Positions 25,150 to 54,516 of a DNA stretch of 64,000 nucleotides are shown in pieces; the first letter of the stretch is position 1; each line of letters begins with the position of its first letter. Both the position numbers and the translations under genes were made by a program. Under the pieces are notes generated by a model. It made no database searches, had not been told where the DNA came from, and was given only the letters and a program-made list of their open reading frames with translations. Source of the stretch: Roseobacter fucihabitans. GTDB lineage: Bacteria; Pseudomonadota; Alphaproteobacteria; Rhodobacterales; Rhodobacteraceae. The stretch spans positions 1,890,501 to 1,954,500 of the forward strand of contig NZ_CP143423.1 of assembly GCF_014337925.2 (NCBI RefSeq). The letters run 5' to 3'.

Positions 25150-25685
25150 GTGAAATACGCGTTTATTCACTGCCCGGCAGGGTATTGTGCAGCAATATCC
25201 CGAGAGGGGAGGCCCATCGTGCAGAGTTTTCTGTACGGTCGATGTGTCGCGTGCTGGCTGTGCATTTCAGTGGGTTCTATGCATGGCTTAAGGAACCGTT
25301 AAGCCAACGTGCGCTTGAAGATGCACGGCAAACCGATCTGATCCAACAAGCATGGACGGATAGCGGCAAAGTATATGGATACCGCAAGCTGCAGGATGAT
25401 CTACTTGATCAAGGTGAGATCTGTTCTGAGAACCATGTTGCGCGGTTGGCCAGTCTCGCGGGCATCACGGCGCAAATCGGCTACAAACGGTGACCTGGTC
25501 GTTATGGCGGCAAACGGGAGCGGATCAGGCGACGAACGTACCTCACACGCGACGCAGCAAGGCAAGACGTGTTCGACTACATCGAGATGTTCTACAACCC
25601 TACACGCAAGCACACGAACAATAGCATGCAGTCACCGGTTGACTATGAAATGGAACAGCAGAGAATGAACAAGGCAAGCGTCTAG
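25150..25685 (+). pseudogene. IS3 transposase OrfB with hairpin insertion and catalytic-core deletion
   Basis: The start GTGAAATACGCGTTTATT is interrupted after six codons by a 41-nt hairpin element. The frame then resumes with EAHRAEFSVRSMCRVL and continues through VHFSGFYAWLKEPLSQRAL to GITAQIGYKR. A stop follows, and the sequence jumps from PGRYGGK to RERIRRRTYLTRDAARQDVF, so the DDE core with its first two acidic residues is gone. The C-terminus DYIEMFYNPTRKHTNN is intact. It is inactive as encoded. Confidence 0.88.
25168..25208 (+). repeat. Mobile hairpin element copy 1 (41 nt), in IS3 orfB
   Basis: Starts CACTGCCCGGCAG and ends GAGAGGG, with a central ggtattg/caatatcc palindrome. Excising these 41 bases joins tttatt to gaggcccat and restores F-I-E-A-H. 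The insertion point in orfB matches that of copy 2 in a different IS3. Confidence 0.92.
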
Positions 25686-51560: not shown

Positions 51561-51836
51561 GCCAGATCAGGTCTGAGCAGATGATCTCTGGCGGGGCCTT
51601 CATCCGTTGTACTGAGTGACTGAACAAGCGGCGCACCCGCGTGAAGAGCCAGATTTCGGTGGCATCGACGGGGTGCCAATGGCGGCTCTCCGCTGCGAAC
51701 AGCAGAAAATAAAAACAGGTGTCGATTAGTCGCCCTGCGTTTTCAGTCGCGCAGGTCTGGTTTATAAGTACCCTGGACCTGTCGCGGTTTGATGCCGCTC
51801 CTTTGATAGCATTTACTGCACCAAAGGAGACGGACT

Positions 51837-52112
51837 ATGGGACTGAAACGAACGGACGAATTCCGCCAAGATGCAATGCGTATCGCATTGACCAGTGGGC
51901 TGACGCGCAAGCAGGTGGCTGACGATCTGGGTGTCGGGATGTCGACGCTGAACAAATGGATCACCGCGCACCGAGATACAGACGTGGTTTCCAAAGAGGA
52001 TTTGAGCCTCGCTCAAGAGAATGATCGACTTCGACGGGAGAACCGACTCCTGAAGGAGGAGAGGGAGATCTTAAAAAAGGCCACCCAGTTCTTCGCGGGC
52101 CTAAAGCAATGA
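51837..52112 (+). CDS. IS3 transposase OrfA
   Basis: A 91-residue protein, complete: MGLKRTDEFRQDAMRIALTS, helix-turn-helix LTRKQVADDLGVGMSTLNKW, then a leucine-zipper-like coil (LAQENDRLRRENRLLKEERE) ending ILKKATQFFAGLKQ. It overlaps orfB by four bases and contains the slippery site near its end, as in active IS3 elements. Confidence 0.93.
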   Translation: MGLKRTDEFRQDAMRIALTSGLTRKQVADDLGVGMSTLNKWITAHRDTDVVSKEDLSLAQENDRLRRENRLLKEEREILKKATQFFAGLKQ

Positions 52113-52126
52113 GATTTAGGTTTATC

Positions 52127-52162
52127 CACTGCCCGGCAGTGCATTGAAAATGCACGAGAGAG
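52127..52162 (+). repeat. Mobile hairpin element copy 2 (36 nt)
   Basis: Begins CACTGCCCGGCAGTGCATTG and ends GAGAGAG. The inner palindrome is gtgcattgaaaatgcac. It is inserted after codon 6 of orfB (tttatc|gaagaa), and removal restores F-I-E-E. It belongs to the short subtype with copies 3 and 8. Confidence 0.9.
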
Positions 52163-52297
52163 GAAGAACGCAGGTGCAGCTTCCCAGCCAACCGGTTGTG
52201 CAATGTTGTGGGCGTCAGCACAAGCGGGCTACGCGCATTCCGCAACCGTCCTGCCAGCCGAAGACGGCGGTCTGACTTGGTCACGCTTGCGCACATC

Positions 52298-52333
52298 CAT
52301 TGCCCGGCAGTGTATTGAAAATACATGAGAGGG
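52298..52333 (+). repeat. Mobile hairpin element copy 3 (36 nt)
   Basis: Begins CATTGCCCGGCAGTGTATTG and ends GAGAGGG. It is inserted at cacatc|aaggag, and removal restores A-H-I-K-E-R. It differs from copy 2 mainly by paired, compensatory changes in the stem (gtgcat/atgcac versus gtgtat/atacat). Confidence 0.93.
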
Positions 52334-52491
52334 AAGGAGCGGTCCCGTCTCAGCCCGGGCAGCTATGGTCGACCGCGCATGACTGAAGAGCTGAAGGAGA
52401 TCGGTCTGAATGTTGGCCATCGTCGTGTTGGTCGTCTGATGCGTCAGAACGGAATAACCGTGGTCAGGACCCGTAAACACAAGGTCACAAC

Positions 52492-52532
52492 CATTGCCCG
52501 GCAGGCGATTGCACAGCAATCTGCTGAGAGGG
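52492..52532 (+). repeat. Mobile hairpin element copy 4 (41 nt)
   Basis: Begins CATTGCCCGGCAGGCGATTG and ends CTGAGAGGG. It is inserted at acaac|ggacag, and removal restores V-T-T-D-S-D. Long subtype with a gattgc/gcaatc stem. Confidence 0.93.
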
Positions 52533-52788
52533 GGACAGCGACCATAAGTTCAACATAGCGCCGAACCTGCTGGATCGGGACTTCACCGCAGATGCGCCAA
52601 ATCAGAAGTGGGCTGGTGACATCAGCTACGTTTGGACCCGAGAGGGTTGGTTGTACCTGGCTGTCATCCTCGACCTGCATTCAAGGCGCGTCGTTGGTTG
52701 GGCCGTCAGTAATCGCATGAAGCGCGATCTGGCAATTAGGGCGCTGAAGATGGCGATTGCATTCCGGTTACCGCCGAAAGACTGCATT

Positions 52789-52829
52789 TATTACCCGACA
52801 GGCGATTACAAGGTAATCTGCCGAGAGGG
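52789..52829 (+). repeat. Mobile hairpin element copy 5 (41 nt)
   Basis: Begins TATTACCCGACAGGCGATTA and ends CCGAGAGGG. It is inserted at tgcatt|caccac within the DDE region, and removal restores D-C-I-H-H-T. It carries paired stem changes (gattac/gtaatc), consistent with selection for the hairpin. Confidence 0.92.
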
Positions 52830-52943
52830 CACCACACGGATCGCGGCAGCCAATATTGTTCTCATGATTATCAGAAGGTCCTGCGCCAGCATGGCTTCAA
52901 GGTATCGATGAGCGGCAAAGGAAATTGCTATGATAATGCCGCC

Positions 52944-52984
52944 CCCTCTCGGCAGATTGCTTTGCAATCGCCTGCCGGGCAATG
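52944..52984 (-). repeat. Mobile hairpin element copy 6 (41 nt), inverted
   Basis: On the reverse strand it reads CATTGCCCGGCAGGCGATTG ... CCGAGAGGG. It lies exactly at the point where orfB jumps from NCYDNA to AFERKVA, so it marks a deletion of about 70 codons, perhaps by recombination between two copies. Confidence 0.92.
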
Positions 52985-53503
52985 GTACGCTTTTGAACGG
53001 AAAGTGGCTTAAACGAGCACCTGGGGCGGCACAAAAGCGCGACAGGTCCACAATCGTCCCAGCCCGAGGATGCGTTTGAGATGCGCGAAGAGCATCTCAA
53101 CTTTCTTGCGCAGCCGCATTGAGATTGCGTATTGCTTGGTCTTGGCAATGTCGCGGGCGACCTGACGGGCGTCTTCATGTTCTTCGCGGGTAATTTTTCG
53201 CGCATCAGCATTCGGGCAGCATTGCATTTCTGACAGACAGGCCTGACACGTCTGTTTAAGGGCCTTATACTTGGCGACGCCTTTGCCGGTTGGCCCACGA
53301 TTTGGGTCAGAATAGTTGCGCCGGAATTGCTTGAGCGGCTCGCCTTCCGGGCAGATGTATTGGTTATTCTCCGCATCCCATTCAAAGTCCGCGCAAGACC
53401 ATGTGCCATCCGTGCGGCTCGCTTTATCCATAACCGGAATGTGCGGTTCGATCTTGCGATCAACCAACCACCCGAGCATCGGGCCGGAACCGTAAGCTGT
53501 GTC

Positions 53504-53543
53504 CATTGCCCGGCAGTTGATTGCAAAGCAATCAATGAGAGGG
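53504..53543 (+). repeat. Mobile hairpin element copy 7 (40 nt), antisense to the IS1182 transposase
   Basis: Begins CATTGCCCGGCAGTTGATTG and ends ATGAGAGGG. It is inserted at gtgtc|ggcgat (plus strand), and removal restores I-I-A-D-T-A-Y-G in the reverse-strand transposase. It is oriented opposite to the gene. Confidence 0.93.
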
Positions 53544-54176
53544 GGCGATAATCCATTCGGGATGCAGATCGAACGTGTCTTTGACCCGATCCAACATTGA
53601 GCGCACAGACCCGACTTCTGCTTGCCGGATTGATCGTCTGGCCTCCACATCGACGATCACGGCATGATCCGTGTCGATCAGGTAATTGGTGGAATAACTG
53701 AAGAACGCAGGGCCTTTACGGGCTGCCGTCCATTGGCTTGCAGGATCAGAATGGGACGTGAACTTGGGTTCAACCTCAGATGCTGCGCCAAAAGCTGCGT
53801 TATCCAAGACATCAAGATACTCCTTCACGGCACGCGGCGCATCGTTTGGATCGATGGCATTATGGTCCCAATCTTCCTTCGGCGTCGCGTTTTGTTTGTT
53901 CGCATCTGCCTCGATCAAACTGGCGTCTGCCGCAAGGCGCTGGCCACTCACCAAGCCATCCGCGATGCACCGAGCTACGGTCTTCTCGAACAGGTGTCGC
54001 AACAATGCACTCTCCCGGAAACGCCCATGCCGGTTCTTGGAGAACGTCGAGTGGTTCGGCACCGGATCAGATAGATCGAGGCGGCAAAACCAACGATACG
54101 CCAGTTTCAAATGCACCTCTTCACAAAGACGGCGCTCCGAGCGGATGCCAGAACAATAGCCCACGAGCAGCATGCG

Positions 54177-54213
54177 CCCTCTCATGCATGTAAACATGCA
54201 CTGCCGGGTAATA
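54177..54213 (-). repeat. Mobile hairpin element copy 8 (37 nt), sense in the IS1182 transposase
   Basis: On the reverse strand it begins TATTACCCGGCAGTGCATG and ends CATGAGAGGG, with a gtgcatgtttacatgcat palindrome. It is inserted at ctgatc|cgcatg, and removal restores E-L-L-I-R-M-L-L-V. Confidence 0.93.
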
Positions 54214-54516
54214 GATCAGCAGTTCTGGGTCGATGGACGGGCGGCCAGTGTGGCTATAAAAGTCCGCTAGGTATTGGCGGATGTCGCTTAGATCAACGAA
54301 CCTATCAATTGACCGCAGCAGGTGATCTTGGGGCACATGATCGTCAATCGAGAACTCGTAAAACAGCGCGCCTTGTGCTTCTTGCTTTGGTCCCAGCATC
54401 GAAATCACCCCCGTTGCTAAGGAAAATTGAATCAGCGAATAGCCACCCGATCAAGCAAGAGTTTTTCAACAGAATCGGCTCAGTGCGGCCTTCCAAAGCG
54501 GTCGCTTGAGAACTAG

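Follow-up and report, generated by a model that had tools for sequence, protein, structure and literature searches.

Hairpin elements in the window

The window analysed here, a stretch of 64,000 nucleotides (nt) of Roseobacter fucihabitans DNA (contig NZ_CP143423.1, positions 1,890,501 to 1,954,500 of the forward strand), contains eight copies of a short hairpin element, all inserted in transposase genes of insertion sequences (ISs). Seven are found in the IS3-family element IS-A and in an IS1182-family transposase gene that adjoins it, and one in a separate IS3-family gene. The features are as follows, in window coordinates, with ^ marking the insertion point in the translated gene.

25168..25208, plus strand: element of 41 nt, just past the start of orfB in an IS3-family IS (VKYAFI^EAHRAEF)
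51774..53050, plus strand: IS-A, an IS3-family IS 1277 bp long, bounded by the inverted ends TGGACCTGTCGCG and CGCGACAGGTCCA and holding five elements
51837..52112, plus strand: orfA of IS-A
52127..52162, plus strand: element 1, 36 nt, in IS-A orfB (MRFRFI^EE); site empty in copy D
52298..52333, plus strand: element 2, 36 nt, in IS-A orfB (LAHI^KERS); site empty in copy D
52492..52532, plus strand: element 3, 41 nt, in IS-A orfB; site empty in copy D
52789..52829, plus strand: element 4, 41 nt, in IS-A orfB (DCI^HHTDRGSQ); site empty in copy D, occupied in copy C
52944..52984, minus strand: element 5, 41 nt; the C-terminal part of orfB is lost here in a deletion of about 150 bp
53051..54408 (approximate ends), minus strand: IS1182-family transposase gene, open after removal of two elements
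53504..53543, plus strand: element 6, 40 nt, antisense to the IS1182 gene
54177..54213, minus strand: element 7, 37 nt, sense to the IS1182 gene

The end pattern CCCGRCAG N10-30 GAGAGRG was used for searching, with the same pattern reversed as the control. It matches eight times in the window, against 0.01 matches expected by chance, and recovers all eight copies of the initial annotation, with lengths of 36–41 nt. That annotation had also reported copies in both orientations and, at seven of the eight sites, recovery of the transposase frame on exact removal of the element; both statements hold on re-checking. Overall, 55 insertions are sense and 72 antisense to the interrupted gene, with frames assigned automatically. 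The element at 25168..25208 has a second copy at C1:3272219 in the genome that holds the window (G000; 4.85 Mb, 6 contigs).

Element anatomy and folding

The elements have the layout YAYTG-CCC-GGCA, core stem, loop of 3–4 nt, core stem, GAGA-GGG, and are 36–44 nt long across the family. The ends read YAYTG or TRYYA, then CCC; beyond CCC and GGG, the two element ends do not form an inverted repeat. The core varies strongly in sequence with its pairing kept, and the conserved hairpin first proposed from paired stem changes is borne out across 147 distinct elements (MAFFT misaligns the variable stems). Their core stems contain 434 G-C, 306 T-A, 215 C-G, 158 A-T, 80 G.T and 10 A.C pairs, and 54 of the 147 fit better if one base bulges out close to the foot of the core stem, a T in 49 of these. 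Common loops are GCA, AAA, GAA, TTTA and CTTG, which we take to be of the kinds that form stable DNA mini-hairpins. Variants with an additional C (ACTGCCCCGGCAG) are present in two genera (L389, L391).

Since a G.T pair turns into A.C on the opposite strand, the excess of G.T identifies the top strand of the element as the folding strand. The first stem filter accepted G.T but not A.C and thus favoured this reading; in a recount that dropped the filter and selected elements by their ends only, 137 of 138 have a stem, and symmetric scoring of the outer six pairs gives 63 G.T versus 8 A.C (44 versus 3 for the first pair alone), so that the excess persists at a lower level. The ratio of G.T to A.C is 29:5 for sense and 44:6 for antisense insertions (automatic frames, filtered set). 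The fold is thus on the top strand whichever the orientation of the gene, which argues for single-stranded DNA, and the similar excess in both orientations indicates that it does not come from a signal acting in the messenger RNA (mRNA) of the host gene.

Positions 1 and 5 of the element, which have no pairing partner within the linear element, covary as C-G or T-A (z = 26.6, 153 elements). They are Watson-Crick complementary in 142 of 147 elements, where composition would give 81%, and in 137 of 145 when these bases are left unfiltered. Joining of the ends would give GGG-C-AYT-G-CCC, a perfect small second hairpin in which these positions pair. With the ends joined, DNA folding yields two hairpins in all three elements tried, each below the energy of the linear form (−5.9 versus −3.7, −11 versus −9.4 and −7.3 versus −6.1 kcal/mol). 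The moving form is thus predicted to be a circular, dumbbell-shaped single strand of 36–44 nt.

Target sequence and exact insertion

Insertion without target duplication, as the initial annotation had it, is supported by empty sites. Elements 1–4 are exactly absent from copy D of the IS-A type, and an intact IS200 gene in the R. fucihabitans genome provides the unoccupied counterpart, exact at the insertion point, of the copy interrupted at 436966. For the IS1182 gene, the best-matching loci delivered from other genomes, a selection of 29 that are 75–85% identical, were compared with the window copy after removal of its elements in silico; 29/29 are gapless at both junctions within 14 nt, with no target duplication for either element. 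IS1182 copies of two further genomes (G007 and G067) carry an element at one of the two window sites. Two outcomes had been named that would speak against insertion, namely that the supposedly empty sites retain the sequence and that the ends are ordinary parts of transposases; neither occurred. Frame restoration by exact removal is not universal, as one site in the R. fucihabitans genome (site 22, C1:2696552) retains one extra C.

The target consensus is CATC^G, with C-A-T-C on the left and G on the right (43 sites in the R. fucihabitans genome, 126 sites in all). Elements ending in C..G mostly precede a G (103/129), and those ending in T..A precede a C (10/13). Identical cores recur in different genera and at sites unrelated to one another. 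The core TGCATGTTTACATGCA, for one, precedes G when its ends are CACTG and precedes C when they are TATTA or TGTCA, so the end bases track the target more than the lineage of the core. This is as expected if bases of the element share in the choice of target. There is a CCC/GGG clamp, and positions 1 and 5 covary with the right-hand target base R1, but R1 does not obey Watson-Crick rules, so a guide mechanism is only suggested.

Location in transposase genes

For 127 distinct sites, the flanking half-genes were picked by codon score and the resulting 116 distinct peptides scanned together; homology was used to assign frames, as calling the longest open reading frame misleads in antisense frames. 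The Pfam scan gave matches to 37 families, of which the 25 listed are transposase, integrase-core, IstB or helix-turn-helix families. In NCBIfam, 35 families matched, the 25 listed being transposase or IstB families: IS3 (38 peptides), IS481 (20) and IS1182 (15), with overlap between families, as well as IS5, IS21, IS66, IS630, IS982, IS6, IS256, IS110, IS91 and others. By these matches, the host genes span at least ten IS families.

All 43 distinct sites in the R. fucihabitans genome lie in transposase or IS-helper genes as judged by eye, some by known motifs only. Outside this genome, 40 of 77 sites were checked singly (every second in the list, plus one). NCBIfam assigns 28 of these to an IS family, with the few non-IS matches being weak second hits, and six of the remaining 12 match transposition families in Pfam in another frame or flank, one of them only at E = 0.004, giving 34/40. 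Four more (L172, L282, L297 and L306) have no family match and resemble worn transposase genes by eye; the last two (L309 and L304) are considered below. Six named plasmid loci were also fetched, and the element was found in five, all transposase-like, two of them at weak E-values. The initial claim that the elements occur only in transposase genes thus stands for 43/43 sites in R. fucihabitans and 34/40 elsewhere and fails for at least one, perhaps two, of the 40; on these assignments, the location is almost, not strictly, exclusive.

The supply of targets does not explain this location. In the window, 1615 positions score at or above the median of true sites, of which 73 lie in the two IS stretches that hold all eight elements. 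We know of no other mobile element with the habit of sitting almost only in transposase genes, nor of any small mobile repeat that prefers them; the near-confinement has no parallel known to us.

Distribution across genomes

The whole R. fucihabitans genome contains 120 strict matches to the end pattern and none to the reversed control; in the stretches fetched from it, a relaxed finder detects 132 elements at 43 distinct insertion sites. The family, by its named carriers the Rhodobacteraceae/Roseobacteraceae, includes many marine bacteria. In a family-wide scan of 394 genomes, nearly all of different genera, the pattern matched in 202. The reversed control also matches there, up to four times per genome, so single matches are often chance coding sequence. 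By our own count of the listing, 27 family genomes besides that of R. fucihabitans have at least six matches, up to 35. A class-wide scan of 385 genomes gave matches in 13, five of which are R. fucihabitans and its family; among the other eight, palindromic cores are seen by eye in two only (G586 with three and G508 with two). Simple pattern counts are inflated, as a coding sequence close to CCCGGCAGCTTGCGCCACAGCACGGGCGAGAGGG, conserved in several Alphaproteobacteria (G622, G458, G733 and G448; L113, L122), fits the end pattern and is not palindromic.

Two element searches of a plasmid collection returned 12 and 73 matching records, 43 of the latter from Pseudosulfitobacter plasmids. Among the named carriers on plasmids are Leisingera, Phaeobacter, Sulfitobacter, Dinoroseobacter shibae DFL 12, Roseobacter litoralis and Octadecabacter arcticus, and R. 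litoralis Och 149 is among the carrier strains. Neighbouring chromosomal DNA used as the query gave no match in the plasmid search, and one element used as the query gave none in a phage collection. The hairpin family is real, widespread and precisely inserted, and larger than initially described. Among the titles listed in searches of the openly accessible literature, none describes such elements, and the main text of the Octadecabacter genome paper, so far as it is covered here, contains neither "palindrom" nor "hairpin" (PMC3646047).

Recurrent insertion and fate of the host insertion sequences

By our own count, elements with unlike cores occupy the same site in nine pairs of diverged ISs, the two members of a pair coming from different genomes; in seven of the pairs, the register is the same on every aligned flank. 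Examples are istB in R. fucihabitans and G067 and the IS1182 gene in R. fucihabitans and G055; at the latter site, R. litoralis has a third element, as seen by eye. R. fucihabitans and G007 also share an identical 37-nt element (element 7), inserted at the same base in IS1182 copies of 77% identity. From the alignments, such shared sites are most simply explained by repeated insertion.

IS-A is present in five full-length copies in the R. fucihabitans genome, 0–6 nt apart and all with the same five elements, and truncated copies keep whichever elements they span. The C-terminal part that its orfB lacks beside element 5 presumably holds the third catalytic residue; without this part, IS-A must be moved in trans, and the five full copies despite a broken transposase show that broken ISs do move. 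About a dozen element-bearing IS types are multicopy in this genome, and 31 of its 55 element clusters hold several elements (repeated copies and neighbouring ISs included).

One IS type has seven element sites (copies A, C and D). These copies share some elements, and their coding differences lean to third codon positions, with 9:8:39 differences at the first, second and third positions between A and C and 14:12:47 between C and D over 115 codons. Ancient insertion under selection, which this bias would favour, was set aside; it is weakened by the re-hit sites and by the identical element in ISs of 77% identity.

An IS3 element 67% related to IS-A has about 19 copies in the same genome (C1:3340254-3341216, L232, and 18 further places). 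The copy that was read is open and without elements, so element-free and element-bearing ISs coexist. A candidate helper for IS-A that has no elements, on contig C3, was rejected, its gene being broken.

Search for a mobilising enzyme and comparison with known systems

An always co-present Y1 (HUH) transposase gene was the check proposed with the initial annotation, and the outcome is negative: 15 of 20 element-rich genomes have no match to Y1_Tnp (PF01797). These 20 were tested out of the 27 with at least six matches; one of the five positives is barely above the cut-off, and those lacking PF01797 include G067 (32 matches) and G013 (2 contigs). Two of 20 element-free genomes have the family. 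The R. fucihabitans genome has ten Y1_Tnp matches; in the eight of these loci that were scanned, no complete element occurs other than one splitting a tnpA gene itself, and no element ends surround the remaining Y1 genes. Three copies of an IS200 tnpA gene, whose product is itself a single-strand transposase, contain an element (C1:436639, 3626497 and 3701079; L237-L239).

Of the IS200/IS605 group, IS608 (PMC5934647) serves here for comparison. Its target choice is linked to bases of the element, which may be so for the present elements too. The present elements differ from IS200/IS605 in that the whole element of about 40 nt is one hairpin, that it is nearly restricted to transposase genes and that most tested hosts have no Y1 gene. 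What they have in common is insertion next to a tetranucleotide, the lack of duplication and a hairpin near the ends. With repetitive extragenic palindromic (REP) sequences, their doublets (REPINs) and the associated tyrosine transposases (RAYTs), they share short palindromes, compensatory stem changes, a predicted single-strand hairpin, non-autonomy and the lack of coding capacity (PMC3116915). Unlike these elements in transposase genes, REPs lie outside genes: of the 16-mers, which occur 1,067 times, only 14 overlap genes (PMC3116915). The GTAG/CGTC tag of REPs (PMC3733652) is not at the foot of these hairpins. They also lack a co-occurring Y1 gene and have a single hairpin instead of a doublet. 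Of the initial comparison with IS200/IS605 or REP/RAYT biology, the likeness to single-strand transposition stands; membership in either group is not supported, given the absence of Y1 from 15/20 element-rich genomes, the missing tag and the location, which is not extragenic.

Miniature inverted-repeat transposable elements derived from DDE transposons have terminal inverted repeats and target duplications, neither of which is seen here. Very small mobile repeats of cyanobacteria, tens of nucleotides long and like these elements without an enzyme of their own, have reportedly been described (Elhai, 2008). These repeats differ in sequence and phylum. For them, a transposase-only location is not known to us. 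The mobile translational bypass elements of yeast mitochondria are likewise short hairpins inside genes with lengths that are not multiples of three; the elements described here differ in occurring in both orientations, in having no paired take-off and landing codons by eye and in a fold specific to one DNA strand.

Proposed mechanism and alternatives

We propose, with a probability of roughly 55%, that the elements are a non-autonomous mobile DNA family of 36–44 nt that moves as a folded single strand. Excision or copying of the element would yield a single-stranded circle, and the joining of GGG with CATTGCCC would form the second hairpin GGGC-AYT-GCCC of the dumbbell. A strand-transfer enzyme provided in trans would open both the circle (at GGG^C) and the target (at CATC^G) and swap the ends, a process that would work like IS200/IS605 single-strand transposition, with an enzyme that is probably not a Y1_Tnp protein. 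Insertion would break the transposase gene, by stops or frame changes in most copies, and the broken, element-bearing ISs would then spread by transposases acting in trans.

Several observations weigh against this proposal or its parts. No circular form was seen, and no mobilising gene was found when Y1 was searched for in the R. fucihabitans genome, in the flanks of eight of its ten Y1 loci and in 40 genomes. The wobble excess beyond the first stem pair is modest (19 G.T versus 5 A.C), and the covariation of position 5 with the right-hand target base R1 breaks Watson-Crick rules. When 43 joined empty-site queries were run against the R. fucihabitans genome, there was no near-identical empty copy among the matches listed (40 of 123 candidates scored), where empty copies have 84–92% identity only. 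The third-position bias could mean that element-bearing genes still work; given the recurrence, it may merely mean that insertion took place after divergence. Two elements are probably outside any IS, judging from their flanks: one lies in an RHS-like piece (E = 0.008) beside an acyl-CoA synthetase gene (L309, G055), the other beside a FAD oxidoreductase gene with no IS recognised (L304, G067). As to targeting, we know of no mechanism for recognising transposase genes of unrelated families, and no result here shows one.

The preference for transposase genes may come from targeted insertion or from a home that is tolerated and continually re-amplified; each is given somewhat less than an even chance, and hidden removal of the elements a far smaller one. 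The one or two sites outside ISs lowered the figure for targeted insertion from 45% to 40%; they also raised the standing of insertion without targeting and lowered that of a dedicated system. Random insertion, with ISs surviving as the main home of the elements because they are dispensable and amplified, is possible, if doubtful, as a full account: broken ISs tolerate more hits, IS copying multiplies their cargo, and L309 and L304 are apparently not in ISs. Against it, intergenic DNA is equally dispensable, but no more than one of the 40 sites sampled may be intergenic, and the few target-like positions in the IS stretches of the window (73 of 1615) and the seven element sites in one IS type also speak against randomness. 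Moreover, the 117 elements from other records represent 95 distinct sites, so they are not visible merely through the IS spread of a few insertions. That the ends belong to the normal conserved sequence of transposases, or match by chance, has next to no probability left; the single strict matches seen in many genomes are coding sequence that fits by chance, but the sequence is exactly absent from 29/29 IS1182 loci and common to unrelated IS families, which refutes this idea.

An origin from IS200/IS605 or REP-type elements, of which these would be minimal derivatives mobilised by a Y1 transposase that acts in trans and would bind or cut the CATTGCCCGGCAG hairpin, is unlikely. The lack of target duplication, the subterminal hairpin, the preferred tetranucleotide, the covariation of ends with target and the single-strand fold would all suit it, as would the ten Y1_Tnp matches in R. 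fucihabitans, and the elements could have come on ISs from hosts that once had the enzyme; the 15/20 element-rich genomes without PF01797, the eight scanned Y1 loci, the missing tag and the intragenic location speak against it. Less probable again is that the elements are intron-like or bypassed, being taken out of the RNA, passed over in translation or cut out precisely, so that the transposase still works and the ISs multiply. The dozen or so multicopy IS types, the lack of a near-identical element-free copy among the matches listed, the frequent clusters of several elements and the third-position bias between diverged copies that share elements would fit such a process. The mixed orientations do not, and the fold, which leans to the element top strand in either of them, speaks against a signal read in mRNA; element lengths are not divisible by three, the sites read show no matching take-off and landing codons by eye, shared sites are explicable by recurrent insertion, and IS-A is broken anyway. 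Classical ribosome bypass is rejected, given the orientation, the fold strand and the codons seen by eye.

Within the proposed single-strand movement, a further and improbable reading is that a dedicated system, either a host defence or a parasite, puts single-stranded hairpins preferentially into the transposase genes of any IS family, recognising mobility rather than sequence and silencing jumping genes family-wide. Near-confinement to transposase genes of unrelated IS families amounts either to natural transposon silencing or to a parasite of parasites, both of which would be new. The elements add a case of DNA that seemingly moves as a tiny folded single strand, and many broken transposases in the annotation of Rhodobacteraceae may share this one cause. 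Carriage by such well-known strains as D. shibae DFL 12 and R. litoralis Och 149 makes the elements testable.

Changes at element edges

At window positions 52930-52990 (L040, L048), about 150 bp that are kept in copies C and D have been lost from IS-A, and the edge of the deletion is the edge of element 5. Two further pairs of loci, C1:902246 (L038) versus C1:3841260 (L068) and C1:2104113 (L047) versus C1:7785 (L031), share one flank of the element, the other flank being changed. These one-flank changes suggest deletions or recombination starting at the element edge.

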